From NCBI GenBank assembly GCA_001940725.1, contig MDVR01000027.1, forward strand, positions 1 to 29,060: a DNA stretch of 29,060 nucleotides, in the 5' to 3' direction. How positions within the stretch are numbered: position 1 is the first letter of the stretch; the number at the start of each line of letters is the position of its first letter. Origin of the DNA: Candidatus Heimdallarchaeota archaeon LC_2. GTDB lineage: Archaea > Asgardarchaeota > Heimdallarchaeia > Heimdallarchaeales > Kariarchaeaceae. The notes beneath the pieces were generated by a model, which searched no databases, was not told the DNA's origin, and saw nothing but the letters and a program-made list of their open reading frames with translations. The position numbers were made by a program, and so were the translations under genes. Positions 3,755-26,214 of this stretch are shown here, piece by piece.

Positions 3755-3897
3755 GTAAAGTCATCATATTATTTATAGTTTCTCCCTATCATGTGATGCT
3801 ATAAAATTGATAGCAATCAATCGAAAAGGTGCAACATTTGATTTTTCGCTTCGATTGACGTATCAATCGATTGTTTCCTTTAATAATTAATGAGACA

Positions 3898-4983
3898 TCA
3901 ACTCCTTGAAAAATTTATGAGCGTTTGCTCATAAAATTGACATGCTGTTTGCATGTCAAGTATTGAAGGTTTCTTGCCAAAGAAACGTTCTTGGGGAGTC
4001 ATTTTTGTTGTAGAATGCACCCTAGCAGTGTTGTAGTAGTCTCTCCATGCATCAAATGCAAATTGCAGTTGATGTATATCTTTTGTAAAAACGAGGTCTC
4101 TGACCTCGTGTTGCAGACTCTGCTGCATCTTCTCCACTTTGCCACATGTTTCTGGGTGTCGAATACGGGATCTGATACTTCTGATCCCGTATTTCGCAAG
4201 AAAGTCTCTGAATTTCTTGGTCAGTTTTCCAGATGGATTATGGATGTATTGACTCCCATTATCATGCAATATGGCTTCTGGAACGCCATATTGCTTGACT
4301 AATTTCTCAAGCAAATCAATCCATGATTGAGTGGACTGATTATCTGAGATTTTACTGGCCAAGCAAAATCTGGAGTGGTCATCGACCACGTTGAAAGCGT
4401 ACAGCTTTCCAGGTTTGTAAAATGGTCCCACATTATCAATTTGCCACAGTTCATTTGGTTTAGACCTTTCAAATCTTTTGTAAATTTGCTTTTTCTTTCT
4501 CATATTTCTTTTGAGACGGGATTTACCAATCCGTCTCAAAAAATAATGAGTTGTTGATTCAGGTAATTTCTGCTGAAATTCAACAGAAATCATTGTTGAG
4601 ATAGTTTTAGCAGATATTTGCAATTCTCGTAACTCTTCAATCCTGAACTTTATCTGGGAATCAAGTCGAGGACCCTTTGGTCCTCGTTTCCTGGGAATGA
4701 TCCCAACAATTCCAAATTGGTGAAATCTTTTGATTTTACGATAAAATGTTGATCTAGGAATTCTAAATTTCTCACAAATTGACGAAACCGTCAATTCGTG
4801 CCATTTACTCTGAGGATCGAGACGATCCTCAATGGCTTGACAAAGAGAAATAAATTCTCTGAGTCTGCGCTTTCGATTAAGGACTTGCGTGATTCGAAGC
4901 ATTAGCAACTCCGGTTCTGCGGGTCCTACTACTTGTTTTTGTAATATCTGGGTGACATGTTTTTCAATAATCACATGTCTCAA
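3898..4983 (-). CDS. IS481-family DDE transposase
   Basis: A 361-residue transposase that cuts and joins DNA at the element ends. A helix-turn-helix lies at about residues 62-95 (SSICEKFRIPRSTFYRKIKR), followed by a basic GPKGPR linker. The integrase core has the catalytic triad D183 (WQIDNVGP), D241 (ILHDNGSQ) and E284 (TCGKVEKM), plus the DDHSR motif at 201-205 typical of the IS481/Rve group. The D-to-E spacing is 42 residues, longer than the common 35, because of extra residues after DNGSQ. The frame is open from start to stop, so the gene may be active. Its oddest property is at the nucleotide level: at least 18 perfect stem-loops lie inside the coding sequence (separate entry). Confidence 0.92.
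   Translation of the reverse strand: MRHVIIEKHVTQILQKQVVGPAEPELLMLRITQVLNRKRRLREFISLCQAIEDRLDPQSKWHELTVSSICEKFRIPRSTFYRKIKRFHQFGIVGIIPRKRGPKGPRLDSQIKFRIEELRELQISAKTISTMISVEFQQKLPESTTHYFLRRIGKSRLKRNMRKKKQIYKRFERSKPNELWQIDNVGPFYKPGKLYAFNVVDDHSRFCLASKISDNQSTQSWIDLLEKLVKQYGVPEAILHDNGSQYIHNPSGKLTKKFRDFLAKYGIRSIRSRIRHPETCGKVEKMQQSLQHEVRDLVFTKDIHQLQFAFDAWRDYYNTARVHSTTKMTPQERFFGKKPSILDMQTACQFYEQTLINFSRS
3914..4979. repeat. Array of perfect stem-loops inside the transposase gene
   Basis: Perfect inverted repeats with loops of 3-12 nt. Stems of 7 bp or more are at 3914-3935 (9 bp), 3937-3959 (9), 3969-3986 (7), 4091-4109 (8), 4162-4193 (11), 4266-4294 (10), 4509-4541 (11), 4566-4590 (7), 4667-4686 (8), 4777-4796 (8, plus an outer CAC/GTG), 4811-4831 (9, plus an outer CCATT/AATGG) and 4954-4979 (7). 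Stems of 6 bp are at 4316-4330, 4348-4370, 4375-4389, 4393-4409, 4733-4747 and 4844-4860. They occur throughout the gene and lie in the open reading frame, so the protein sequence must accommodate them. Confidence 0.9.
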
Positions 4984-5154
4984 AAATTGTTAAGTTAGAT
5001 AACCAATCGAACAAGTGGAATATTTGATCGATCTACGATTATTGGATCAATGTTGTGATCATATAATTTGATACAATGCTCTTGCTAGGTGTAAACTAAC
5101 TTAAGTTAAAAAATCAGATTCTAAAACCATCCAACTTTCTAATAAATAATTTCC
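4984..5154. other. Non-coding flank of the insertion sequence
   Basis: No gene seen. It holds the candidate right end of the IS (5036-5051), a GATCA/TGATC pair nearby, and a perfect 12-bp palindrome TAACTTAAGTTA at 5097-5108. Confidence 0.5.
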
Positions 5155-6739: not shown

Positions 6740-8413
6740 ATGAGCACGGAGTTATTACCAAAAGTATCCCAGACAAAATTATTAGGATCATTGATATTCT
6801 TCTTTTTTACTTTGATTATAATTTTTTTAGTAAATCTAACATCAGATATTAACTTTCTTAGCGTTGGCATTTTATTTGGTGCTTTATTTTTCTCCAGTAT
6901 AATATCGTCCATTATCTATGAAAGCACAATTATTCAAAAGCTGGGATCGTATCTTTCATATGGATATATTTATCTCAATAAATCTGCTAAAATGCATAAA
7001 CAAATATGGTGGGTTCCTGTAATAAATCCAAATAGAAAATCAATCATATTTAATTCTCCTAATTCATATTCAAAATATCCTTGGATACAAAAGTTTGATG
7101 ACATAGTTTTTGGAAAATTTATATACGGAATCTCAATTGGAATCATTGGGTGGATTATTATATTCAAAGGAAATGAGCTTCTACAGCTATTCTTAGGAGA
7201 ACCCGTTGTTTTCCCTTCCAAAATTGTTTTTGGGAGTTTCATTTTCATGGGTGGCGTGTTAATTTGTATCCTCAGTTTAAGAAGATTAGTCAGAGAGCAC
7301 TTTGAAGAAAGATTTGGATTGATCTGGTATACAAACTCTCTAGCTGTCAATCAAAATATTTCAATGAATCAACAATCGCCAAATCTGATTGAGGTTATTA
7401 GAAAGGACATGAAAAATTTCATTTTAATCGAGGATTGGAGAGGTTTACTTTTTTATGGTCTCGAAAACATAACAGAAGTATTAAATTCATACTTTAATGA
7501 CATTCTTAACAAATGGCCAATACAAAAATTTGTTCAGGAAAATATCGATTCAATTGCATTATATTTTGATATTTCAAATATTGAAGATGCTATGAATTTT
7601 AGTTCACATTCTCTATTTGCTAAGACAAAAAACTCCTCATATATCCAAACCCTACCATTTAATCACCAAAAAGATTCTAATTATGCATTAATATCAATAG
7701 CTTTTGGAAAAGATACATACCAAGGTCAAATAAAAAAGAATTTAGAAGAAATAGAAAAATTACTAACCAACTTAGGTTACTTAGATTCATTTTTGATTAG
7801 TTTAGTTAGTAATATTTTATCAAGTGAATTGTTAATTGATGAAAAAGATTCAACAATAGGAATCGAAATTTCTAAAATCATCAATCTTCCTGATAATTAT
7901 ACTCAACTATTATATTCTTTACAACCAGAGTTGAATGTCTCATATGATAAAATGTTAGGGGATATAAAAAACAGCAATCAGACATTTAATTCATTACGTC
8001 TTCAAATTTATTTTGTATCATTAATTTCAATAACCATAGTAAATCAAAAATTAGAACTCTCTGACCTTAAGGAATTGAAGTATCTTTTCAGAGGTAGGTT
8101 TGTCTCCACTTCATTCAATTTACGTAAAAATGGAGATCCTTTGCGATTCCTAAGAAAGAGAAATTTTATGGAAAAGAGTGCTTTAGTATTTCTCCAAAAC
8201 GAGTACAGGAAAAATATTCCGCACTGGATAAGTACTGGCCTTAATAGGCTACTTAGAGATAGTATAGGTTCTTTAAGTGCCATAAAGATTGAGTATGTTA
8301 TAGCGTCGCTTCTTCGCTATAGAAAAAGTCAGTTTTTGGACCTTCAAGATCTATTAGTTCATTTAACTGATAAACTGAAGTATTTACGTTATGAAATACG
8401 ATCGGAGATATAA
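6740..8413 (+). CDS. Uncharacterised membrane protein, 557 residues
   Basis: Four hydrophobic stretches at about residues 14-33, 40-60, 126-143 and 163-182 suggest an N-terminal membrane domain of two hairpins. The remaining 370 residues are soluble and mostly helical, with no P-loop, nuclease or other motif I recognise. A strong TATA box about 26 nt upstream supports this start and a leaderless mRNA. The gene converges with the Septu operon, with an intergenic element (8431-8492) between the two stops. Near its 3' end a 7-bp perfect stem (TATAGCG/CGCTATA, about 8300-8322) lies inside the coding sequence. Function unknown; a membrane component of an accessory or defence unit is possible from context only. 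Confidence 0.75.
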   Translation: MSTELLPKVSQTKLLGSLIFFFFTLIIIFLVNLTSDINFLSVGILFGALFFSSIISSIIYESTIIQKLGSYLSYGYIYLNKSAKMHKQIWWVPVINPNRKSIIFNSPNSYSKYPWIQKFDDIVFGKFIYGISIGIIGWIIIFKGNELLQLFLGEPVVFPSKIVFGSFIFMGGVLICILSLRRLVREHFEERFGLIWYTNSLAVNQNISMNQQSPNLIEVIRKDMKNFILIEDWRGLLFYGLENITEVLNSYFNDILNKWPIQKFVQENIDSIALYFDISNIEDAMNFSSHSLFAKTKNSSYIQTLPFNHQKDSNYALISIAFGKDTYQGQIKKNLEEIEKLLTNLGYLDSFLISLVSNILSSELLIDEKDSTIGIEISKIINLPDNYTQLLYSLQPELNVSYDKMLGDIKNSNQTFNSLRLQIYFVSLISITIVNQKLELSDLKELKYLFRGRFVSTSFNLRKNGDPLRFLRKRNFMEKSALVFLQNEYRKNIPHWISTGLNRLLRDSIGSLSAIKIEYVIASLLRYRKSQFLDLQDLLVHLTDKLKYLRYEIRSEI

Positions 8414-8430
8414 TAAGCATGAATTGATTA

Positions 8431-8492
8431 TTTTCGACTAACTCTCTAAACAGCTATATTATTAAATTACAGATAGTTAGGTCTAAATGAAA
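8431..8492 (-). repeat. Island intergenic element, copy 3
   Basis: Positions 8431-8477 match 10526-10572 in 38 of 47 bases. Read on the minus strand, the outer arms GACCTAACTATCT and AGAGAGTTAGTC can form an imperfect stem with one bulged base and one mismatch. The element lies 43 nt beyond the ptuB stop codon. Confidence 0.65.
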
Positions 8493-8535
8493 TCGATTGA
8501 TCGAGGATAATCATCACACCAGTAAATCAATTGCA

Positions 8536-9192
8536 CTAGTCCATGAAAAACTGAGTTAGATTTTGATCTAGTGCACTAAAATATTGACGTAACATTGTTG
8601 AGAAAGCGTAACTTTTGTTAAAATATCGCTCTAATGAATCTTTCATTTCCAGTTTGACAGCTTCAGAGGCTGGATGATCAAAAAGATAAATACAATTCTG
8701 TATTTTTATTATTAACATTGAGATATTAGTTCTAATTCGTAAAGCAGAGGAATCAGTTCGATGATTTACAATATGATTCAACTCCTTTGCAGTGTTTTTT
8801 GCCTTGTGATCCGAGGATAGAGGAAATATTTTGACATAAATTTCTGATTTATCAATAGACGGCCTTTGTGTAATAAGTGATTCTACATCATCACCATCAG
8901 CTGGAAAAAGTAAATCTCCTATCTGAAATTTTGGACGTCTTTGATTGCATTTACTGCACGCTGGATACAGATTAGTCCAATCAAACTTTCTGTGATCATT
9001 GGTTTGATTCAAAGACTTCTGCTCACGATGATCCACATCAAAAGCACTAGAAATGTTTTGTTCACATAAGTAACATTTCCCTAGGAAATCTTGGTAAAGT
9101 TGATCTTTTACATCTCGGTGTCGATACCTATAGTCCGATTTGTTATTTGTTAAAATTAATGGTGCGGGTAGACTTCTCTTAATTGTCATCAT
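8536..9192 (-). CDS. ptuB: Septu-type HNH endonuclease PtuB
   Basis: A 218-residue HNH nuclease, the predicted effector of a two-gene Septu defence system. The zinc-binding and catalytic parts are visible in order: CYLC at about residues 38-41, the DVDHRE motif (catalytic His) at about 51-56, and ACSKCNQRRPKF at about 77-88. The C-terminal half is helical. Its ATG follows directly after the TAA of the upstream ATPase gene with no gap, so the two are translationally coupled; a second ATG follows immediately and could also be used. Family knowledge: PtuA and PtuB form a complex in which the ATPase controls DNA or RNA cleavage by the HNH subunit in phage-infected bacteria. That this archaeal pair does the same is inference. 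Confidence 0.78.
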   Translation of the reverse strand: MMTIKRSLPAPLILTNNKSDYRYRHRDVKDQLYQDFLGKCYLCEQNISSAFDVDHREQKSLNQTNDHRKFDWTNLYPACSKCNQRRPKFQIGDLLFPADGDDVESLITQRPSIDKSEIYVKIFPLSSDHKAKNTAKELNHIVNHRTDSSALRIRTNISMLIIKIQNCIYLFDHPASEAVKLEMKDSLERYFNKSYAFSTMLRQYFSALDQNLTQFFMD

Positions 9193-10410
9193 TTATTGAT
9201 TATCCCCAAAGTCACTATTTGGTTTTATACGCTTTTGTCTGATGTAGAGAATTTCAAGTGCTAGTAAATGTGATCTCTTTGCTAATTGTTCAGCTAGATT
9301 ATCCATTTGTTCTAGCTCTTCTTGATTTAATTTTTCATGCTTAAATCTATTGTACAATTGCTGAAGGGTGGTTAGTTTCTTATTAGTTTCTAAATCAAAT
9401 TCATTATCAAGACTGAATGGAATTTTCAAGAGTTCAGCGAAAGAAGCACCAATGAGATCCTTACTTTTATATGTTCTTTGGGTGCTTAAGTCACAAATTA
9501 AGGCATTGGGAATCGAGGTAATGATTGCAGGTGAGTGAGTAGAAACAATTAATTGTAATCGAGGAAAAGATTGAATTATCAATTTCATTATTTTTCTTTG
9601 TAGTTCATAGTGAAGATGATTTTCTATTTCATCAATTATGAAAATTCCCTGCTCAAGGAATCCTTTTCTTCTTTCACCAATAACATGATTTGTTACCAAC
9701 AATTCAGCCCAGATTGCAATAATGCTAGCAATACCATCAGGAAGTTGATTAAAATTTACAATATGGCCGTTTGAGTATTTTAAATTGAAGGAAAATGTTT
9801 CAGGTTTAAATTCTAAATTGACTTCTTCTCCAAATATCTCACACAAAAAATCATTGAAGTTTTTAAACCAATCCTTGATTTCGATTGATTTTTGCAAATT
9901 TCCCTCCTCCTCTCCTTGGAAAGATTGTTGAGCTCTTCTTTCCAATAAATATTGTTCCAAGAACCTAATCGTATTCCCGCTCCTACTCGGTGTTGTCATA
10001 TCTATCCAAGCGTTTTCTTGATAATTTTTACCAATCGTGTTGGGTCTTTCTACACTCAAATTACGGAATGCCCCTAAGAAAAATACTACATAGGCCTTGT
10101 TCTTGAACTTCTCTAAAATTTTGTTTTTGGTCAATTCTTGTTCAGGAAATTCAACATCAATGTTCGGTAAGGTTCCGTCGTCTTCTATTTTTCTTTTAGG
10201 TTGATCCAAAGTTACATATAATGATCTCAAAAAAGATGTTTTACCGCTTCCATTTTTGCCAGTAACAATGAGGTGCATTGGGAAATTTAATTCATCTGAA
10301 ATTAAATTTAACTCAAACGGAATCTTACCTTTAAGTCTCTGGTGATTATCTCTTATAATCTTTATATTTGATACAAAATGAGATTTATATTCAATATTTT
10401 GTGAATCCAA
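9193..10410 (-). CDS. ptuA: Septu-type SMC/ABC-like ATPase PtuA
   Basis: A 405-residue ATPase. Walker A is GKNGSGKTS at about residues 50-58. An ABC-signature-like segment NQLPDG lies at about 217-222, Walker B IFIIDEIENH at about 254-263, and the H-loop STHSPA at about 288-293. The region between Walker A and the signature is helical, as in overcoming-lysogenisation and SMC-like ATPases. It is somewhat shorter than the roughly 500 residues I associate with bacterial PtuA. The start is TTG, supported by AGAGGT a few bases upstream on the minus strand and a TATA-like TTCTATAAGAG at 10443-10453. The ATPase-HNH gene pair in this order, abutting, is the hallmark of Septu. No reverse transcriptase lies nearby, so it is not the PtuAB-bearing type of retron. 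Confidence 0.8.
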   Translation of the reverse strand: MDSQNIEYKSHFVSNIKIIRDNHQRLKGKIPFELNLISDELNFPMHLIVTGKNGSGKTSFLRSLYVTLDQPKRKIEDDGTLPNIDVEFPEQELTKNKILEKFKNKAYVVFFLGAFRNLSVERPNTIGKNYQENAWIDMTTPSRSGNTIRFLEQYLLERRAQQSFQGEEEGNLQKSIEIKDWFKNFNDFLCEIFGEEVNLEFKPETFSFNLKYSNGHIVNFNQLPDGIASIIAIWAELLVTNHVIGERRKGFLEQGIFIIDEIENHLHYELQRKIMKLIIQSFPRLQLIVSTHSPAIITSIPNALICDLSTQRTYKSKDLIGASFAELLKIPFSLDNEFDLETNKKLTTLQQLYNRFKHEKLNQEELEQMDNLAEQLAKRSHLLALEILYIRQKRIKPNSDFGDNQ

Positions 10411-10922: not shown

Positions 10923-12566
10923 TTGAATTATAAAATATTATTTGCACTGCTCATTAGTTTAATACTATTAAATTTTGGTCTAAGTGTTAATTCATCCAAT
11001 GAACCACCTAGCAATAATTCCTATATTTCATCTATTGAATTTGAAAAGCCCACAATTCAGAATTACCAACCTCATCCCGCAATAAATATCTCATCCGATT
11101 CAGATTTTGTTGACTTAGGGTTCCCAGGCATTGGAGATCAGCAAAATCCGTACATGATTGAGGGGTTGGAAATTATAGGATCTGAATCGGTCAGGAAATT
11201 AATTAGTATAAAAAATGTAAACTCGACCTTCACAATAAAGAACAATAGACTTGTTGGGAATGGATCGGAGAAGTTAAACGTTTATCAAAATAACATTGAA
11301 AATATTCAAAAACTGATTTATATTGAAAATACAAATTCGCCATTTATTATAGAGAACAATTTACTTTTTGGCAATGATTCAGATGGGATTTACTTAAACA
11401 AGGTTAGTTCTGCATCAATTGAATATAATATTATTGAAACGACCAATATAGCAATTAATTCAGTGAACAGTAGTCAAATTATAATAATTAACAATGTTAT
11501 ATCAAAATCTACATGGGTAGGAATTTCAATTTTAGAATCACTAGGTGTACAAATAATAAATAATTCAATAATAAATAAAGGTGAAATAGGAATTGACATA
11601 AAATCTCATAACGTTGTTATAGAAAATAACACCATAGAAGGAGGTAGTTTTGCAGGAATCAAGGCATCAAATCGGTATCCAATCTATTATTCGAATTTAA
11701 CTGTCTCAAGTAACACAATTAATAACACACTCCATGGGATTTATTGGCAAACACAAGATAGTATAATTTCTGAAAATCAAATATTAAATTCAAAAGGGAA
11801 TGGGATCCTTTTGCAGATTCTTGATCAATCGATCCAAAATGGTTTTAATAACAATTTCTCAAATAATTTAATTTCTAGTGCTAATTTGAATGGCATTGCA
11901 ATTCTAGGTGCAGATAGTAACACTTTTACAAACAATACAATAATTGATTCCGGGTTTTCAGGGATTTCTGTTTCAGGATCTTCAGGTTTAAGATCAAAAA
12001 ATAACTTCATTTCACGTAACGAGATTTCATATTCAGATGATTATGGAATCCGTATAGGATATTCTGCGGAGGAAAATTCAATCATAGGTAATAACTTTCA
12101 ATTAAATAATAATGGTGGAATCCAAGGGTATGATGAAGATGAGAAAAATAAATTTCAATTGAATTATTGGGATGATTGGACTGGACCAGATTCCGATGTA
12201 AATGGAATTGTGGATGCTCCTTATATCTTTGAAGGAAATTCAGATCCATATCCCAGAGTATCGATAGATAGTAATTATGAAATCTTAGAGCAAAATATAC
12301 CATTTAATACTGTCAAAATTACAATTATAGACTTTAAAACAGATGGTGCCACCAAAATTGAGACTGAAACTCAAAATTTACCTGAATTTCATATCAGTAC
12401 AGCAGAATTCTTCTTGATTATCTTGATTATAGGTGTTGTATCATTTAAAGTGTATCAAAAATACCAAAAGAAATCATTTCCTCTCAATCGTTGTCCATCA
12501 TGTAACTCGCGTTACCCTCCCGGAAGTGTTTATTGCGGGGAATGCGGAGCCGAGGTAGAGATATAG
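10923..12566 (+). CDS. Surface-anchored right-handed beta-helix (NosD/pectate-lyase type) protein with zinc ribbon
   Basis: 547 residues. A signal peptide or N-terminal helix at residues 1-22 is followed by the motif DFVDLGFPGIG...PYMIEG that opens many archaeal beta-helix surface proteins. Residues about 80-440 are a run of short repeats with N/I/G patterns (NNxIxxS, IENNTIEGG) that form a right-handed parallel beta-helix. A membrane helix at about 495-512 follows, then a cytoplasmic zinc ribbon with CPSC (524-527) and CGEC (538-541). The chain would place the helix outside the cell and the ribbon inside. The start is TTG, with a TATA-like box about 25 nt upstream. The usual role of such proteins is glycan binding or cleavage or surface structure; no catalytic residues can be assigned here. 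Confidence 0.82.
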   Translation: MNYKILFALLISLILLNFGLSVNSSNEPPSNNSYISSIEFEKPTIQNYQPHPAINISSDSDFVDLGFPGIGDQQNPYMIEGLEIIGSESVRKLISIKNVNSTFTIKNNRLVGNGSEKLNVYQNNIENIQKLIYIENTNSPFIIENNLLFGNDSDGIYLNKVSSASIEYNIIETTNIAINSVNSSQIIIINNVISKSTWVGISILESLGVQIINNSIINKGEIGIDIKSHNVVIENNTIEGGSFAGIKASNRYPIYYSNLTVSSNTINNTLHGIYWQTQDSIISENQILNSKGNGILLQILDQSIQNGFNNNFSNNLISSANLNGIAILGADSNTFTNNTIIDSGFSGISVSGSSGLRSKNNFISRNEISYSDDYGIRIGYSAEENSIIGNNFQLNNNGGIQGYDEDEKNKFQLNYWDDWTGPDSDVNGIVDAPYIFEGNSDPYPRVSIDSNYEILEQNIPFNTVKITIIDFKTDGATKIETETQNLPEFHISTAEFFLIILIIGVVSFKVYQKYQKKSFPLNRCPSCNSRYPPGSVYCGECGAEVEI

Positions 12567-15647: not shown

Positions 15648-18600
15648 TCAATCTAACTCCTCCTTGTTACCAGAAATTTCAGATATATCATTTGATTCAG
15701 AAAATAAATCGTTAATTATCCGATCGAAAATTACTGTGAGTTTATCCGCAATATTGTTAAAAGCTCTAAAGTTAACATTTTCCCAATTTAACACGATTTC
15801 CCATTTTGGACTATGTAATAATTTTGTTAATTCATCTAATAATGGAGGATGGATAAGTGGTGGCAGACCTTGATGTGATTTTAGAACATCTCCCTTATTG
15901 ATTTTTCGCTTTTTATCTTTGTTTTTATGGAGTAACGATCTTACTGTAGGACTTTTGGAATTGGGACCCCTCCCAGGATTATACACAATCCAAGTTCTGA
16001 GTTGTCTAGATGGGTCAAGCTGATCTTTTGGAATATTAATCCAAGCTCTCAACCTAATAACATATCCCAAACCTTCAACAAACTTTACACTGTCATATCT
16101 ATTTGGATTATAATAATTAATAATATATTTCAACCAATGTTCCTGTGCGTCACTCCCAGTACCATCATAAGCAAGATCAAACATTGATACTAATTTATCA
16201 ATTACTTCATCAGTTAAGATTGATTCATCAAAAAATGGATGCTCACCAGAATTTCTTAATGAATACAAATGTTCTCTAATCTTGTTCAAATCTATGTAAA
16301 CACCTTCAGGGAGAATTTTGTAGAATTCTCCAATATCATCAATTATGAAATTACCATCAGCAATTTGATCTATATTTTGTGCATCAAAATCAAAAAATCT
16401 ATGTCTGACTGCTATTGGCTTGAAGAACGAATCTGAGATAGCTAGTCGATTATGGATCGCACTATTTTCGATTTTGTCTGACCCGAATCTTGAAGCACCG
16501 TAATAATATTGATTGGGAGAATAAGAAGTGTTTGAAAACATAGAAACCAATTTTTTACTTGCTGTATGTTTCGTTATTTCTTTCTGGGAATTTATTAAAA
16601 TATTCTGTACTTTCCCTTTGTGAACATATTTTAATGTCCACGAATTATTTTTGGATTTCATTGATTTAGAATTGTTTTCCAATCGATGAACAATAAAATC
16701 AACAGCCTGATTATTCTTATTTATAGATGGTATTACAAGTACTTCTTCTGAAATGAATTTTTTCAAATACTTCTCAACTTGTTTACAAGACTCTGTTATC
16801 TCATTACAGATAAGTGAATTAGCTTTCATTGTGAAAATATCTCCCAACTGGAGATCCCAAATCCTAATTTTTAATTTATGAAATTCTCTTTCATCATCTT
16901 GAAACTCTATGGTAATGGGGTCCAATAAAACAATGGTACCGTCAAATCCTTCACGGTGTGATAAATTGAAACCTTCAATATCTGTCACTGATATCTCTAA
17001 CAGATCTTTGCTAATTGGAAACTGATTCCAATACTCATCAATCTTTGATATCCATTCTGATCCTTCATCAGTTGAATTGATTTGGTAAAATTTTGTAGGA
17101 TAAATTCCATAATGGTTCTTGAATTGCTCTTTAAATTCACCCACAGAATTAATATATCTTCTTGACATCACTTTTCCTTTTTTGTTGCGGATTGGGATTT
17201 GCAACTTTATCAATTTTGAATCTATTTCTTCAAGGGGAAGTTCATCATCACTCTCAATAATATGTTGAAGGATGGAAGGTTTCAACATGTGAAATTGAAA
17301 ATTGTTTTGTATATCAAGGTAAACAATTCGTAATGTACTATATTGTTCAGTCTCTGACAGGATATTCAAAATGTCCTGAGCCTTCCTACCATATAATGCT
17401 ATTGTGTTGTTTGATTTTTCAGCTAAACTATCAAATTGGTTGATGGAACTTTCTACAAAATGAAATTTAAGTGAATTTTTTGCAAAGATTTTTCTTAGTT
17501 CCTCAGGCGTTCTCTTATGTTTAGACCAAATATCTAACGGACCATGAATGTAATCTTTCCCATGCTTAAATTTTGTATTAATTAAAAACCTGGTACTCAT
17601 ATTACTTCCATCTTTGTTACTTTTTATCTCAGCTGGAACCATGATAATATTTGAACTAGGCTCCCATCCTTTGTCTGTGTTAACAGGTAAGGTGTAAAAA
17701 ACGAGGTGATCAAATCCATTGGGATCTCTACGTAATATAAGAGAATTTTGCTGAAAATCAATTAGATATTTTTTAATTTCAGTTGGGGTTGCCCCTTTTA
17801 CCTTCATAAACATCTCCACAAATTTATGATGGTTTCTTATTGAGTAGATAGAATGTTCAAGTTCTCCCAGCCTTGAGAGTATAATCGAATCTGATAAATT
17901 CAAAACAAATTTTTTCATGTCCCCAGCATTAATATCGAAATAATCCAAAATATCTGAAAAAATACCATTTACTTTTTCACTATCCCCCCACAACTCCTCA
18001 ATCACATCCCGATCAACCACAGGGTCCAGCACATCCCGCATCGCATCCCCCAGCGCCCCCAAATAAGCCACCAGCCACTCCCGACGCAGCTCAACATAAA
18101 GCCCCTGCAGCCCTTCCTCCTGCCCCTCAAGTACCTCCATCCGCCCCAAATCCACAAATTCCGCCAACCTTTTCCGCACCGACGCCTTCACCTCGCCCCC
18201 CTCGAACCCAAACCACGTCACAAAATTGTCAAACCGAAACCCCAAATACACCTCGCCCTCCGCATCGAAACGCAGCCCATAAACAACCTCGACCCCCACC
18301 AGTTCAAATTCACTGAACATGTGCTTCACAATTTCCAGATCCTTGTAATAATCCAGCCTCACCAACAAATAAAACGCCGTCAAACCCTCAAACATCCGCA
18401 GCCGTTCCACGAGTTCACCGGGCCTCTTGATCTCATGCCGCAGCAACTCAGCCAAAATCATCTCATACCGCGGGTTTTGTCCCGACTCAATTTTAGCACT
18501 TGCCCGATCCTCCACAAACCTCAACAACTCCTCAACACTCACTTTCAGATCAACCAAATCATGAATGGAAATTGGCTGGTTGAGTACCGCCTTTGAGTAA

Positions 18601-21600
18601 CCTCTTTCGTTTTCCGGATTTGAATTTTCTTTCGAACCCGTCTTGATTTCAGCCTTTCCTTCATCCATCTTTTTAGAGTTTGCCCGTTTCCGTACCGACA
18701 ATTTTGCACTCTGCGCTAGTTCTCTTATATCGCGCTTTTTCCACAACTTTGTATTTTTTGTCCTCTCCTCAATCCGTCCCCAAATTCGTCCAAACACCGG
18801 ATTCCTAATCTTCTTCAACGACAAGTCACCGATCAAAACTGTCGGTTTCGAATCCAACAAATACTGAACCCCAGGCTTCACCTCACTAATCTGTTTTCCC
18901 ACTTTTAATACAGTGCCTCTTAACCCCGAAGGATACGCCCCCCGATTTAACAGCCCACCCAAGAACGCATGAACCCCCTCATCCTTAACCAACTCCTCTC
19001 CCAGCAATTTCCGTACCGACAAATCATCCGCCCCAGCCACCGAATTTCCCGAAACCAAAATCCCCTCTTCCCACATCTCACTTCCCAACTCATTATAAGA
19101 AGCATAGAACGCCAGTTTCCCCAGCAACACATTCTGCAAAAACTCCGGTGAAACCTCATCCCTGATCACAACATATTCCACGCCATCCTTCCCAACAGGC
19201 AATACCTCAAACTCGCTACCAGCATCCACCTCATCTTTTCGCACCACCAGGGTAATCTCAATCCGCTCCCCTTCTTCCGATCCCAGACTTCCAAGTGACC
19301 CCACAAACGCCTTCTTCAACCTCGCAATCGCAGCTTGTTTCGCAAACTCCCTCATATCCCGAATATGCCCCCTCCTACGCTCGACCGAATTCATAAGCTC
19401 ATTCAAATACATCATATTAACAAACAAGTGAAACAAGTAATTTCGATCCAACCCAGTCTTCCCAGCCACCCAACTCAGCGACATCCCCGAAAAAACAAAA
19501 TCCCAAGCCTCTTCGATCACATCCGGCTCGACCACCACAGACCCCAAACTGTTAAACTTGACTTCATATGGTTCATATGGTGCACTTTCCTTCTCAAACT
19601 CCATATCCGAAATCCTCCGAGGATGCATCAACTTCGCAAGTTCACTCGATTCTTCCGAATTTCCATGGCTCAAATATTTCCGTACTGCAAATTTCTCACT
19701 AATTTTTCGAAATAACGAACCAAACAATCCAAGTCCACCTGAAATTACAGATTGCAAGGATTTCCAAGAATACCCCGTCTGTAAAACTGATTTGGAAGGC
19801 GATATTGCGAGACCAGAAGCATCTTGGTTATGATCCTTCTCCTCAAAATCTAGTACTTCACGGTGCGTTTCCGCCGGTTCATCATAATACTCCGGTTCCT
19901 CTATTTCCCGTGCACCCTGTATTTCATAAAAATCTAAACTCCCGCTATCTTCCGTAGATACATCAACGACCGATGGAACAATTTCCGTACCGACACTTTC
20001 AATCGGTTGATCATCCCTTAAATCAAAATCACTTTGTATTTCGGCAAAGCTTTCAGAAAACGCACCAGACGACTTTTCTTCTCCAAGTGATTGATCATTA
20101 AGATCTGCCCCAAAGTCATCAATAACCTCAATTTTTGATCCTGATACAGGCAAACTGTGAAAATCCTTGGCTGCAGAATCTTGGGCATTTCGGAATTCCA
20201 TTTCGGACATACCTTTTTCTACTTCTGACTCATATCCCTCACCCTGTACCTCGTATACGTGAGGTTCAGGCACCCAAGAGCGATTCAATGACTGATTTTC
20301 TTTCCTCGATGCTTCATTAAATTCACCCGTTTGTCTTAAATTCGAACCCTCTCTAACTTTTTCTGCGTCCCTAGCCATTTCCGTACCGACACTTTCATTT
20401 CCTATTTGCTCATTTTTTTGTTCTAAACTCCCCTGCGGCTCCCTTATCAATCGGGAGGTCGGAAAAATCGGATCTGTTTTTAGTCTGTCAATCGCCTCAT
20501 TGATTGCTCGTTCCAGATCCTTATCTATTTTATACTCGGGTTCCTCTGGTTGACTTTCACCCAGAACATTACTCTTTTTTGAAAAAAAATCGGTTGGATC
20601 TACCCACTTTCCTTTACCATTAGATCCACCAACGTACCTTGATAACCCACTTGACTTATATTTAATCCTATCAAACTCCTCCCTCATTGGCTGATCATAA
20701 GAATCATGAAGTTCGTACCTACCAGCAAGTATAGTAATTGCTCCCCCCAAAATGAACCACCACTTGTTCAGAACAATAAACTGCCAAATCAACTCACCTT
20801 GAGAATATTCACGTTCATAAAAAATTGCAGGAATTTTAAAAAAAGCTTCAAACCACACTTCGACCAGACCCCCATAATTAGTCACATCAATCTCCAGCAC
20901 CTGCTCAAACCCGGGTTCATACTGAAGCCGAAACTCAATTGTCGAATCCTCTTTCTTAGTTCGCTTGAATCTCTCCCCTTGCTGAAATAATATTACATCA
21001 GGCTGTTCTGAGTCAATTATATCTTCATCGTATGAAAATCCCATATTCAAAATCATTTCTATTTTCGGTGAGTCATCAAGCGTAAGATTGTGATCCCATA
21101 GCATCCTCTCAAAAAAACGCGAGGTCAACTCATAAGGTACTATGAGAAATAGGCTTTTACTATTTAGGATCCCCTGTTTGTCAAGTAGCATTGCATAGGG
21201 AAAAGCACTCACTGACCCCAAGATATCATTATGAAACTCATTATGATCCACAGAAGCCGGTCTTAATGTCTGAACTACATAGTCAATAGTAAGATCAATA
21301 TCCGGTCTTGAAAACCCGGAATATGTAAATTGAAGCTTAAACTCAACATTGATATTATTATCAGATGATTCTCTAGAGTTTTCAAGTGAAAGAGAATTAT
21401 CGTAGAAAGACCATAATTCATTGAAATAATGGGTCGGATCAATAACTGTAGTAAAATCAACCTGTTCCTGATTACCATGCGGAACTGAATGTCTGGTTCT
21501 ATTATATTCTTGATAACTGCCATCAATTAACACCAAAAACGTGGTTATCAGTTCAATTCTGAGCGAGTCAGAAAGAATTTTGGTTTCATTAGGTTCAAGA

Positions 21601-21881
21601 GTTGGTGTATCATAAATTTGAAAATTGATAACCAAAGAATCAAACATGAAAATTTCTTGAACAATTGTAAGTTTATGATTTTCAGTTTTATGACTTAAAT
21701 GTAAATGATTTTGATTTTGTTGGAAGTATTTTATTTCAGGATAAAAAGAGAGAGACCGCTCCTCTTTATCATTTTCAATGTGTGAAGAAACAGTGGTTGA
21801 GGCTATTAAAATTTGAAAAAGGATGACATAGAAAATAATTATTTTCTTCCTCTTCAAAATTAAAGCCGAACCAATATTCAC
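15648..21881 (-). CDS. Giant membrane-anchored protein, 2,077 residues, mosaic base composition
   Basis: I recognise no family. In order: a signal peptide at residues about 12-32; an extracytoplasmic beta-rich domain (about 35-365); one membrane helix (about 370-388, WWFILGGAITILAGRYEL); a long acidic, low-complexity stretch (about 420-720). A folded domain (about 765-1035) follows, then a basic linker, a second folded domain (about 1110-1300), and a C-terminal region (1300-2077) with no motif I can name. The start is GTG at 21881, with CTTATATAG about 26 nt upstream. The two folded domains are coded by DNA with about twice the G+C of the rest and with G-ending codons, so they look imported or differently selected. 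A 13-nt motif recurs in two reading frames. The topology suggests a surface receptor or scaffold with a very large cytoplasmic part. The frame is open throughout. Confidence 0.8.
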   Translation of the reverse strand: MNIGSALILKRKKIIIFYVILFQILIASTTVSSHIENDKEERSLSFYPEIKYFQQNQNHLHLSHKTENHKLTIVQEIFMFDSLVINFQIYDTPTLEPNETKILSDSLRIELITTFLVLIDGSYQEYNRTRHSVPHGNQEQVDFTTVIDPTHYFNELWSFYDNSLSLENSRESSDNNINVEFKLQFTYSGFSRPDIDLTIDYVVQTLRPASVDHNEFHNDILGSVSAFPYAMLLDKQGILNSKSLFLIVPYELTSRFFERMLWDHNLTLDDSPKIEMILNMGFSYDEDIIDSEQPDVILFQQGERFKRTKKEDSTIEFRLQYEPGFEQVLEIDVTNYGGLVEVWFEAFFKIPAIFYEREYSQGELIWQFIVLNKWWFILGGAITILAGRYELHDSYDQPMREEFDRIKYKSSGLSRYVGGSNGKGKWVDPTDFFSKKSNVLGESQPEEPEYKIDKDLERAINEAIDRLKTDPIFPTSRLIREPQGSLEQKNEQIGNESVGTEMARDAEKVREGSNLRQTGEFNEASRKENQSLNRSWVPEPHVYEVQGEGYESEVEKGMSEMEFRNAQDSAAKDFHSLPVSGSKIEVIDDFGADLNDQSLGEEKSSGAFSESFAEIQSDFDLRDDQPIESVGTEIVPSVVDVSTEDSGSLDFYEIQGAREIEEPEYYDEPAETHREVLDFEEKDHNQDASGLAISPSKSVLQTGYSWKSLQSVISGGLGLFGSLFRKISEKFAVRKYLSHGNSEESSELAKLMHPRRISDMEFEKESAPYEPYEVKFNSLGSVVVEPDVIEEAWDFVFSGMSLSWVAGKTGLDRNYLFHLFVNMMYLNELMNSVERRRGHIRDMREFAKQAAIARLKKAFVGSLGSLGSEEGERIEITLVVRKDEVDAGSEFEVLPVGKDGVEYVVIRDEVSPEFLQNVLLGKLAFYASYNELGSEMWEEGILVSGNSVAGADDLSVRKLLGEELVKDEGVHAFLGGLLNRGAYPSGLRGTVLKVGKQISEVKPGVQYLLDSKPTVLIGDLSLKKIRNPVFGRIWGRIEERTKNTKLWKKRDIRELAQSAKLSVRKRANSKKMDEGKAEIKTGSKENSNPENERGYSKAVLNQPISIHDLVDLKVSVEELLRFVEDRASAKIESGQNPRYEMILAELLRHEIKRPGELVERLRMFEGLTAFYLLVRLDYYKDLEIVKHMFSEFELVGVEVVYGLRFDAEGEVYLGFRFDNFVTWFGFEGGEVKASVRKRLAEFVDLGRMEVLEGQEEGLQGLYVELRREWLVAYLGALGDAMRDVLDPVVDRDVIEELWGDSEKVNGIFSDILDYFDINAGDMKKFVLNLSDSIILSRLGELEHSIYSIRNHHKFVEMFMKVKGATPTEIKKYLIDFQQNSLILRRDPNGFDHLVFYTLPVNTDKGWEPSSNIIMVPAEIKSNKDGSNMSTRFLINTKFKHGKDYIHGPLDIWSKHKRTPEELRKIFAKNSLKFHFVESSINQFDSLAEKSNNTIALYGRKAQDILNILSETEQYSTLRIVYLDIQNNFQFHMLKPSILQHIIESDDELPLEEIDSKLIKLQIPIRNKKGKVMSRRYINSVGEFKEQFKNHYGIYPTKFYQINSTDEGSEWISKIDEYWNQFPISKDLLEISVTDIEGFNLSHREGFDGTIVLLDPITIEFQDDEREFHKLKIRIWDLQLGDIFTMKANSLICNEITESCKQVEKYLKKFISEEVLVIPSINKNNQAVDFIVHRLENNSKSMKSKNNSWTLKYVHKGKVQNILINSQKEITKHTASKKLVSMFSNTSYSPNQYYYGASRFGSDKIENSAIHNRLAISDSFFKPIAVRHRFFDFDAQNIDQIADGNFIIDDIGEFYKILPEGVYIDLNKIREHLYSLRNSGEHPFFDESILTDEVIDKLVSMFDLAYDGTGSDAQEHWLKYIINYYNPNRYDSVKFVEGLGYVIRLRAWINIPKDQLDPSRQLRTWIVYNPGRGPNSKSPTVRSLLHKNKDKKRKINKGDVLKSHQGLPPLIHPPLLDELTKLLHSPKWEIVLNWENVNFRAFNNIADKLTVIFDRIINDLFSESNDISEISGNKEELD
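17980..18540 (-). other. G+C-rich segment 1 within the giant gene
   Basis: Counted by hand, 18061-18120 is 35/60 G+C (58%), against 15/60 (25%) at 17281-17340 in the same gene. On the coding strand G exceeds C 27 to 8 in that stretch. It codes for about residues 1114-1300. The left edge at about 17980 is sharp. Confidence 0.8.
18171..20390 (-). repeat. Recurring 13-nt motif TTTCCGTACCGAC
   Basis: Exact copies at 18687-18699, 19008-19020, 19982-19994 and 20378-20390. A one-mismatch copy lies at 18171-18183 and a looser one at 19677-19689. The two right-hand copies share a longer identity of 21 nt and encode SVGTE. The others are read in a different frame and encode SVRK or AVRK. Confidence 0.8.
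18780..19555 (-). other. G+C-rich segment 2 within the giant gene
   Basis: Similar composition to segment 1, coding for about residues 775-1035. It is separated from segment 1 by an AT-richer linker region (about 18540-18780). Confidence 0.75.
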
Positions 21882-25617: not shown

Positions 25618-26214
25618 ATGCAAGAATCATATACTATACCCAGGGGAGTACAGACAAATGTGTCAAGACAAAGAATAGTAGCTAAAGTTGTACTCTGTGG
25701 AGGTTGGCAAGTTGGGAAAACCGAACTCAGAAGGAGATATATGGGTGAAACTTTCATTCAAGATCATCTTAGTACATTAGGAGCTGATTATTCTGTAAAA
25801 AAAGTGAAACTTGACGAAGATACAATTATTGAATTACAAATTTGGGACCTTGCAAGTCAACCAGGTTTTGAATCACTCCGCCAGCGCTTCTTCAAAGGAA
25901 CTTCTGCAGCGATAATGGTTTTTGATCTTGAAAGACCAGAAACATTCAAAGAATTTGATTCTTGGTTTGAGCAGCTTTGGAGAGGTATGCAGGAGAAAGC
26001 GATGCCCATTGCAATTATCGGTAACAAATCACATCTTAATAACGATCAAATAACTGAAGAAGAAGTAATGAAATACATTGAAAAGTTAAAAACAGATAAT
26101 GACATTCATGATGCGAATATCTTCTACATTAAAACAAACGAAAAAACTGGCGAAAATATCAATCACTGTTTGCATAATCTCGCTACATCATTGTTTGAAC
26201 TATTGAAAGATTAA
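25618..26214 (+). CDS. Rab/Ras-like small GTPase with degenerate base-recognition motif
   Basis: 198 residues with an approximately 20-residue polar N-terminal extension. G1/P-loop GGWQVGKTE lies at about 28-36, the G2 threonine in STLGADY at about 52, G3 WDLASQPGF at about 77-85 (DLASQ instead of DTAGQ), G4 GNKSHL at about 135-140 (His where NKxD has Asp), and G5 near IKTNEKTG at about 170. There is no C-terminal cysteine, so it is not prenylated like eukaryotic Rabs. Overall spacing (IWDL...FFKGTSAAIMVFDL) is Rab-like. Asgard archaea carry many such GTPases. Loss of the G3 Gly and the G4 Asp predicts altered hydrolysis or weakened guanine specificity. No partner can be read from the neighbourhood, but surface-signalling genes lie on both sides. 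Confidence 0.88.
   Translation: MQESYTIPRGVQTNVSRQRIVAKVVLCGGWQVGKTELRRRYMGETFIQDHLSTLGADYSVKKVKLDEDTIIELQIWDLASQPGFESLRQRFFKGTSAAIMVFDLERPETFKEFDSWFEQLWRGMQEKAMPIAIIGNKSHLNNDQITEEEVMKYIEKLKTDNDIHDANIFYIKTNEKTGENINHCLHNLATSLFELLKD

Follow-up and report, generated by a model that had tools for sequence, protein, structure and literature searches.

Dense perfect stem-loops along most of an IS481-like transposase gene in a Heimdallarchaeota archaeon

The mitochondrial genes of Nematomorpha contain coding palindromes, inverted repeats of up to 284 bp, for which repeat conversion through template switching has been considered (PMC6649704). In the genomes of some vertebrate RNA viruses RNA structure is pervasive, a property known as GORS (PMC3950689). 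Among insertion sequences, the transposase mRNA of ISPpu9 carries a structured 5′ leader that controls expression (PMC8450116). Template switching creates and maintains RNA hairpins (PMC8794818) and has altered coding genes in yeast (PMC8604942). Transposases and integrases of 11 families have been reported from circular Heimdallarchaeum genomes (PMC8813620); in the main text of that report the terms hairpin, inverted repeat and secondary structure do not occur. Within literature on hairpins in transposases or insertion sequences, on the structure of their mRNAs and on Asgard transposases, the titles and abstracts of the best-matching open publications (subscription literature lies mostly outside this set) contained no report of a hairpin-packed transposase coding sequence. 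We know of no earlier insertion sequence whose coding region is pervasively structured.

Here we describe a transposase gene filled with short perfect stem-loops, located in a 29,060-nucleotide stretch of contig MDVR01000027.1 of Candidatus Heimdallarchaeota archaeon LC_2 (hereafter the window). As in the Nematomorpha palindromes, many perfect repeats lie within a functional protein gene and their arms encode conserved residues; unlike those organelle-gene repeats, the stems are 6–11 bp long and, within the window, confined to a transposable element. Long repeats of up to hundreds of bp are absent, the longest perfect stem being 11 bp. As in GORS, coding RNA is folded pervasively beyond what composition accounts for, but this is the gene of a DNA element rather than the RNA genome of a vertebrate virus, its stems are short and perfect, and its folding is strand-symmetric. 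The structure of ISPpu9 is in the 5′ untranslated region, whereas here it takes up most of the coding region (PMC8450116). The template-switch studies offer a route to perfect stems and to multi-base changes, including in coding DNA, but their cases are RNA genes and dispersed events in yeast rather than a single stem-filled gene (PMC8794818, PMC8604942). The coding palindromes of Nematomorpha mitochondria are the nearest parallel, and pervasive viral RNA structure is the nearest functional one.

The transposase gene and its surroundings

The gene occupies 3898..4983 on the minus strand and encodes 361 amino acids when translated from TTG, its start position being uncertain. The product matches the Pfam integrase core rve (PF00665, 2.1e-21), and the D, D and E columns of the DDE catalytic core are conserved in alignment A1. 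An earlier note on this DNA had assigned the gene to the IS481 family. IS481 (NF033577, matched over residues 62–334) is indeed the top curated NCBIfam family, with which the protein shares the DDE integrase core; the score of 203.4 bits falls below the family cut-off of 224 bits, and we therefore call the transposase IS481-like. Its two nearest relatives in protein searches were P0001 (81% identity) and P0002 (88% identity, a partial protein), and the close relatives with a named organism come from Kariarchaeaceae, Hodarchaeales and Heimdallarchaeota archaea (Heimdallarchaeia, Asgard).

Two scans of genome contigs gave one Heimdallarchaeota locus and four bacterial loci. The former, L001, lies on contig JACZSS010000003.1 of Heimdallarchaeota archaeon B11T1B5 and encodes P0014, which is identical to the window transposase at 192 of 333 aligned residues (58%). 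Viral contigs searched with A1, P0007, P0122 and A2 yielded no further relatives, a search of plasmid DNA for the element gave no match, and among the matches listed in plasmid and phage protein searches all were below 60% identity. A DNA pattern from downstream of the gene had 0 matches; 12 matches to an upstream pattern were taken as chance from their number and set aside.

A scan gave no clean terminal inverted repeat of the element; motifs resembling each other were seen at both ends by eye only. Upstream of the gene, a 26-base segment (4985..5010, minus strand) is identical by eye to L001 at 23 of 26 positions and is likely the right terminal region or a promoter. Downstream, an 18-base segment (3858..3875, minus strand) with one mismatch by eye against L001 probably belongs to the left terminal region. 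In L001, a stretch of about 71 bp stands in tandem repeat upstream of the transposase (3841–3982), each copy containing TTATCTAGCTTAACAATT, which resembles the segment that precedes the transposase gene in the window.

Other genes of the window include a Septu-like defence pair, in which an ATPase (9193–10410, PADLOC match to PtuA 3.6e-64) and an HNH protein (8536–9192, match to PtuB 2.2e-29) are adjacent on the minus strand, and a Ras-family small GTPase (25618–26214, plus strand; PF00071, 8.7e-31), which fits an Asgard archaeal origin. A right-handed beta-helix/NosD protein is encoded at 10923–12566 (plus strand), with a C-terminal zinc-ribbon match under the Pfam cut-off, and a 2077-aa ORF starting from GTG at 15648–21881 (minus strand) has no Pfam match at E 0.001. 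No known RNA family or tRNA was found within the window.

Stem-loop excess in the coding sequence

The earlier note had reported at least 18 perfect inverted repeats in the gene, 12 of them with stems of at least 7 bp. Both counts were exceeded when we searched exhaustively (stem at least 6 bp, loop 3–12 nt): the gene contains 22, of which 15 have stems of at least 7 bp, 10 of at least 8, 6 of at least 9 and 3 of at least 10. Given on the minus strand like the gene itself, the longer stems are distributed as follows. Those of 11 bp lie at 4162..4193 (loop 10) and 4509..4541 (loop 11), and one of 10 bp at 4266..4294 (loop 9); stems of 9 bp are found at 3914..3935 (loop 4), 3937..3959 (loop 5) and 4811..4831 (loop 3). 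Stems of 8 bp lie at 4091..4109 (loop 3), 4291..4314 (loop 8, with an arm overlapping the stem at 4266..4294), 4667..4686 (loop 4) and 4777..4796 (loop 4), and stems of 7 bp at 3969..3986 (loop 4), 4197..4219 (loop 9), 4347..4371 (loop 11), 4566..4590 (loop 11) and, at the 5′ end of the ORF, 4954..4979 (loop 12). Three GC-rich stems claimed previously are those at 4667–4686, 4811–4831 and 4162–4193. The left flank carries the two stems also claimed there, of 6 bp with a loop of 4 (3806..3821) and of 8 bp with a TACG loop (3851..3870); the latter is 3′ of the stop codon and overlaps the downstream segment shared with L001.

Shuffling did not reproduce these counts. In 500 shuffles that preserved the protein and the gene's own codons, the control that the earlier note had proposed, stems of at least 6 bp averaged 4.45 ± 2.04 with a maximum of 12 (22 observed), and stems of at least 7 bp averaged 1.56 with a maximum of 6 (15 observed). 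The means for longer stems were 0.50 (at least 8 bp, maximum 4), 0.17 (at least 9, maximum 2) and 0.04 (at least 10, maximum 2). With protein and codons fixed, the stem z of the gene is 9.5–10.2. In a comparison taking in 14 window ORFs and 6 bacterial ORFs, the 13 other window ORFs had z from −1.5 to 2.4 against 10.2 for the transposase. Stems of at least 7 bp occur at 13.8 per kb in the transposase and at 0–3.3 per kb in 15 other ORFs.

Folding energies agree. The message has a minimum folding energy of −351.1 kcal/mol against −247.0 ± 10.2 in 40 codon shuffles (z −10.2), a GORS-like depth far below matched shuffles along most of the gene, and the complementary strand is equally extreme (z −11.5). 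When 150-nt tiles were compared with dinucleotide shuffles, leaving out of the averages two tiles that straddle the limits of 3780–5030, the seven tiles within these limits had a mean z of −4.27, six of them below −3, while the 184 tiles outside had a mean of −0.05 (SD 0.97) with a single one below −3. The folded block spans approximately 3826 to 4950 and ends near the ends of the element.

We calibrated the codon-shuffle null on an unrelated bacterium (G156; 20 stretches, about 171 kb), where 128 ORFs contained 159 stems of at least 7 bp against 148.6 expected, with a mean stem z of 0.08 (SD 1.07) and two values above 3. Fifty-one bacterial ORFs picked as transposases gave stem z from −1.3 to 4.3, three above 3; these are automatic picks trimmed to the first ATG, some of which may not be transposases, L018/L023 and L038/L039 look like duplicates, and the set omits L044, L048, L053 and L055 (stop inside the match) and L050 and L068 (no usable ORF). 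Local folding was assessed at 38 of 40 loci drawn from this set, and three of these had a sense-strand z below −3 (L054 −3.3, L070 −4.4, L074 −5.5). The IS481-like gene also departs from the IS481 family in that 18 bacterial ORFs found with A1 had z of at most 2.5 for stems of at least 7 bp; in the four bacterial relatives, available as partial stretches, a stem excess was not clear. Thus z near 4 occurs elsewhere, and the window gene's value is unmatched in the control sets. Two integrase-core genes of G156, L070 and L074, are themselves over-structured (local folding z −4.4/−3.6 and −5.5/−3.7), and both belong to the 128-ORF sample that averages a stem z of 0.08.

Chance, base composition or repetitiveness of the protein could be invoked, since 3 of 51 control ORFs exceed a z of 3 and 3 of 38 fold below −3, but a z of 9.5–10.2 with protein and codons fixed, and a shuffle maximum of 6 against 15, leave this account a negligible probability; for the window gene it is refuted by codon shuffles, folding energy and tiles alike. 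An artefact of codon or amino-acid usage is ruled out by the codon shuffles together with the calibrated null, and a host-wide mutational bias by the normal neighbouring ORFs and outside tiles. Taken together, these results confirm that the stem-loop excess in the transposase gene is real.

The excess is short-range, being limited to loops of 3–20 nt. Beyond about 20 nt the counts stay within the shuffle range (the highest, at loops of 61–120 nt, was 9 stems of at least 7 bp against 4.6, maximum 11), which rules out a long-range fold, and direct repeats in the gene are likewise within the shuffle range. Inverted repeats with loops of 0–2 are not enriched (0 against 0.33), and neither the phase of the stems relative to codon positions nor rare codons within stems gave a signal. 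Folding shows no strand preference. A mismatch-type test offered a small hint for the sense strand (3 G-T and 0 A-C among six one-mismatch stems), which was supported neither by window stems carried to L001 (17 G-U and 17 A-C cells) nor by G-U pairs in predicted folds (16 sense, 30 antisense). Strand symmetry gives no support to an action as RNA.

Strand symmetry is what would be expected if the structures acted in DNA, where hairpins or cruciforms might serve transposition or target-site immunity, and the flanks carry stems too. DDE transposases, however, act at terminal repeats, while the stems are spread across the ORF and not located at the ends, and loops of 0–2 show no enrichment. We consider this account very unlikely, and the role in transposition itself that had been put forward earlier gained no supporting observation.

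A further property concerns perfection. The enrichment holds for perfect stems (15 against 1.9) but does not extend to stems that have one mismatch and no 7-bp core (4 against 2.4), as in Nematomorpha, where an excess of imperfect repeats is likewise lacking and palindromes are gained and lost among relatives (PMC6649704). This pattern would be expected of element-specific homogenisation of arms, in which template switching rewrites one arm of a short imperfect repeat to match the other, purifying selection holds the protein, and the hairpins are functionless. Such rewriting would be stronger in the element, perhaps because it replicates when it transposes or once resided on a replicon prone to switching. 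Strand symmetry, loops limited to about 20 nt and the equally all-or-none perfection of the Nematomorph repeats, for which template switching has been considered (PMC6649704), also speak for it. The earlier note had suggested repeated template-switch repair: a host-wide form does not fit the 13 other ORFs and 184 outside tiles, which are normal, but we give an element-specific form somewhat less than even odds. There is no known reason for transposases to switch more.

Relatives at the DNA and protein level

L001, distant at 58% identity, is the one relative we compared with the window gene at the DNA level. Its homologous gene has 10 stems of at least 6 bp against 4.09 (reached by 3 of 1000 codon shuffles) and 5 of at least 7 bp against 1.04 (reached by 4 of 1000), with local folding z of −4.6 (sense) and −4.1 (antisense). 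The L001 gene lacks the restriction of the excess to perfect stems seen in the window gene and in Nematomorpha, one-mismatch stems being enriched (5 against 1.54).

Mapped by codon alignment, the window stems pair at 81 of 164 L001 positions against 66.7 ± 4.6 (3 of 2000 shuffles reach this), and in the reverse direction L001 stems pair in the window at 41 of 68 against 32.7 ± 2.8 (4 of 2000). The surplus of the window stems is made up of pairs in which neither base has changed (71 against 55.3); since unchanged pairs arise from shared ancestry without selection, it is not evidence of conserved structure. Compensatory substitutions, which the earlier note had suggested looking for in relatives, were not in excess: compensated double changes number 10 against 11.3 expected for window stems in L001 (1561 of 2000 shuffles reach 10) and 5 against 3.9 for L001 stems in the window (661 of 2000). 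Third positions in codons of shared residues match at 30 of 63 in stems and 57 of 123 outside (Fisher P 0.88); restricting the comparison to longer stems, or using the stems found in L001, raises the match within stems slightly but not significantly. We had read the better pairing in both directions as conserved structure with compensation; with compensated changes at chance and stem third positions no better conserved, that reading was dropped.

Single stems are suggestive. The stem at 4266–4294 has a counterpart in L001, a perfect one of 9 bp, and here one double change is compensated and falls in synonymous codons. At 3937–3959 it pairs at 8 of 9 positions, and of three pairs changed on both sides two are compensated and one is now C-C; at 4811–4831, 7 of 9 pairs are retained with no compensated changes. 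Most window stems are absent from L001. The earlier note had named such absence, without compensatory changes, as a refuting outcome, and this check did not turn out in its favour; the L001 gene is nevertheless over-structured, and this foldedness, which is real, rests largely on stems other than those of the window. Conservation stem by stem is not supported by this alignment; what recurs in L001 is the tendency to over-structure. Stems mostly unshared, with compensation at chance, are what homogenisation would give if stems come and go. A gene folded largely by other stems is also what would be expected if foldedness itself were kept.

A second, unrelated transposase lies 3 kb from the IS481-like homologue in L001. 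This DDE_Tnp_1/DUF772 gene (7871–8860), whose nearest NCBIfam is IS1182 at 127.6 bits (cut-off 270), has 7 stems of at least 7 bp against 1.62 (0 of 1000 shuffles reach this) and local folding z of −5.8 (sense) and −8.1 (antisense); its named relatives of at least 50% identity are from Heimdallarchaeota and Kariarchaeaceae. The tetratricopeptide gene between the two transposases is normal, with 4 stems against 3.27 and folding z of −0.5 and −1.0 for its two parts. Because bacterial controls include such values (3 of 51 and 3 of 38), neither L001 gene is decisive alone, but three genes from two sources hint that over-structuring may be a habit of Heimdallarchaeia transposases and not of one family. 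One-mismatch stems are enriched in this gene as well (6 against 2.3), so that both L001 transposases count against homogenisation of arms.

Protein relatives retain further traces. For the stem at 3937–3959, relatives whose first arm encodes DM carry AC in the second, and seven proteins (P0006–P0012, which include HeimC2_21920 of LC_2) with AAK, AVK or ATK have AW, five of them allowing 9 of 9 pairs. The exception is L001, with AAK and AC (8 of 9 pairs); in P0001 and P0003 the residues are compatible with no more than 7 of the 9. We predict that the AAK..AWQ proteins are encoded by DNA with CTGCCAAGC/GCTTGGCAG. Arm amino acids covary at the 22 window stems more than at 300 same-shaped pseudo-stems in the same alignment (P 0.0012) and at 10 L001 stems more than in any of 5000 pseudo-stem sets, one stem dominating both results; at 14 stems of the DDE_Tnp_1/DUF772 transposase the excess of covariation is weak (P 0.027). 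The stems were picked in one member of each alignment, so relatedness to that member can contribute.

For stems of at least 8 bp and codons 31–345, stem codons are conserved at 53 of 59 against 199 of 256 others in P0001 and at 47 of 48 against 200 of 232 in P0002. Because stem codons are more conserved against both, the window stems may be older than the split from these proteins; the same picture would arise, though, had the stems formed in parts where the protein is conserved in any case. Against P0006–P0012 stem codons are not better conserved (0.596 against 0.612 for stems of at least 8 bp, 0.552 against 0.63 for at least 7). The conservation in P0001 and P0002 is awkward for homogenisation, in which recent rewriting should have altered residues there.

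Selection or mutation, and what either would mean

We tentatively favour, at a probability of roughly 0.4, the reading that selection acts on the transposase coding sequence both for its conserved protein and for a dense array of short hairpins, formed locally over most of the gene, with single stems turning over while overall foldedness persists. We prefer it because a purely mutational account has more difficulty with the confinement to transposases. Also in its favour are the recurrence in two families, the turnover of stems with foldedness kept, the conserved stem codons and the covariation of arm residues. Several results point the other way: compensated changes at chance and unremarkable stem third positions in the L001 comparison, the lack of strand preference with G-U equal to A-C, and stem codons no better conserved against P0006–P0012; a compromise between fold and protein should moreover leave one-mismatch stems, which the window gene does not have in excess. 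On balance we hold selection and element-specific template switching nearly level.

Both selection as the keeper of the foldedness and an action in the transcript are what we infer. If selection is responsible, a folded message might throttle synthesis of the transposase by slowing translation, or the hairpins might shield the element's RNA from attack directed at single strands, by nucleases or by antisense or guide RNAs, in the way that GORS protects some RNA viruses. Many of the perfect stems may still be supplied by template-switch repair.

A bolder version, which we regard as unlikely, would have Heimdallarchaeia elements of unrelated families independently armouring their transposase messages against host attack on single-stranded RNA, such as Argonaute- or CRISPR-guided cleavage; the hairpins would then match, in prokaryotes, the genome-scale RNA structure that serves immune evasion. 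An Asgard Argonaute, from a Lokiarchaeon, cleaves RNA using RNA guides (PMC11217426); nothing in the present data links an enzyme of that type to this element.

If the stems are mutational, the gene would cleanly illustrate how template switching shapes a working gene and leaves its neighbours untouched. If foldedness is selected, no insertion sequence known to us would precede this one in having its coding region pervasively structured: a minimal mobile element would carry, along most of its single gene, a second code that constrains the synonymous sites. One would then ask what it is in Asgard cells that favours hairpins.
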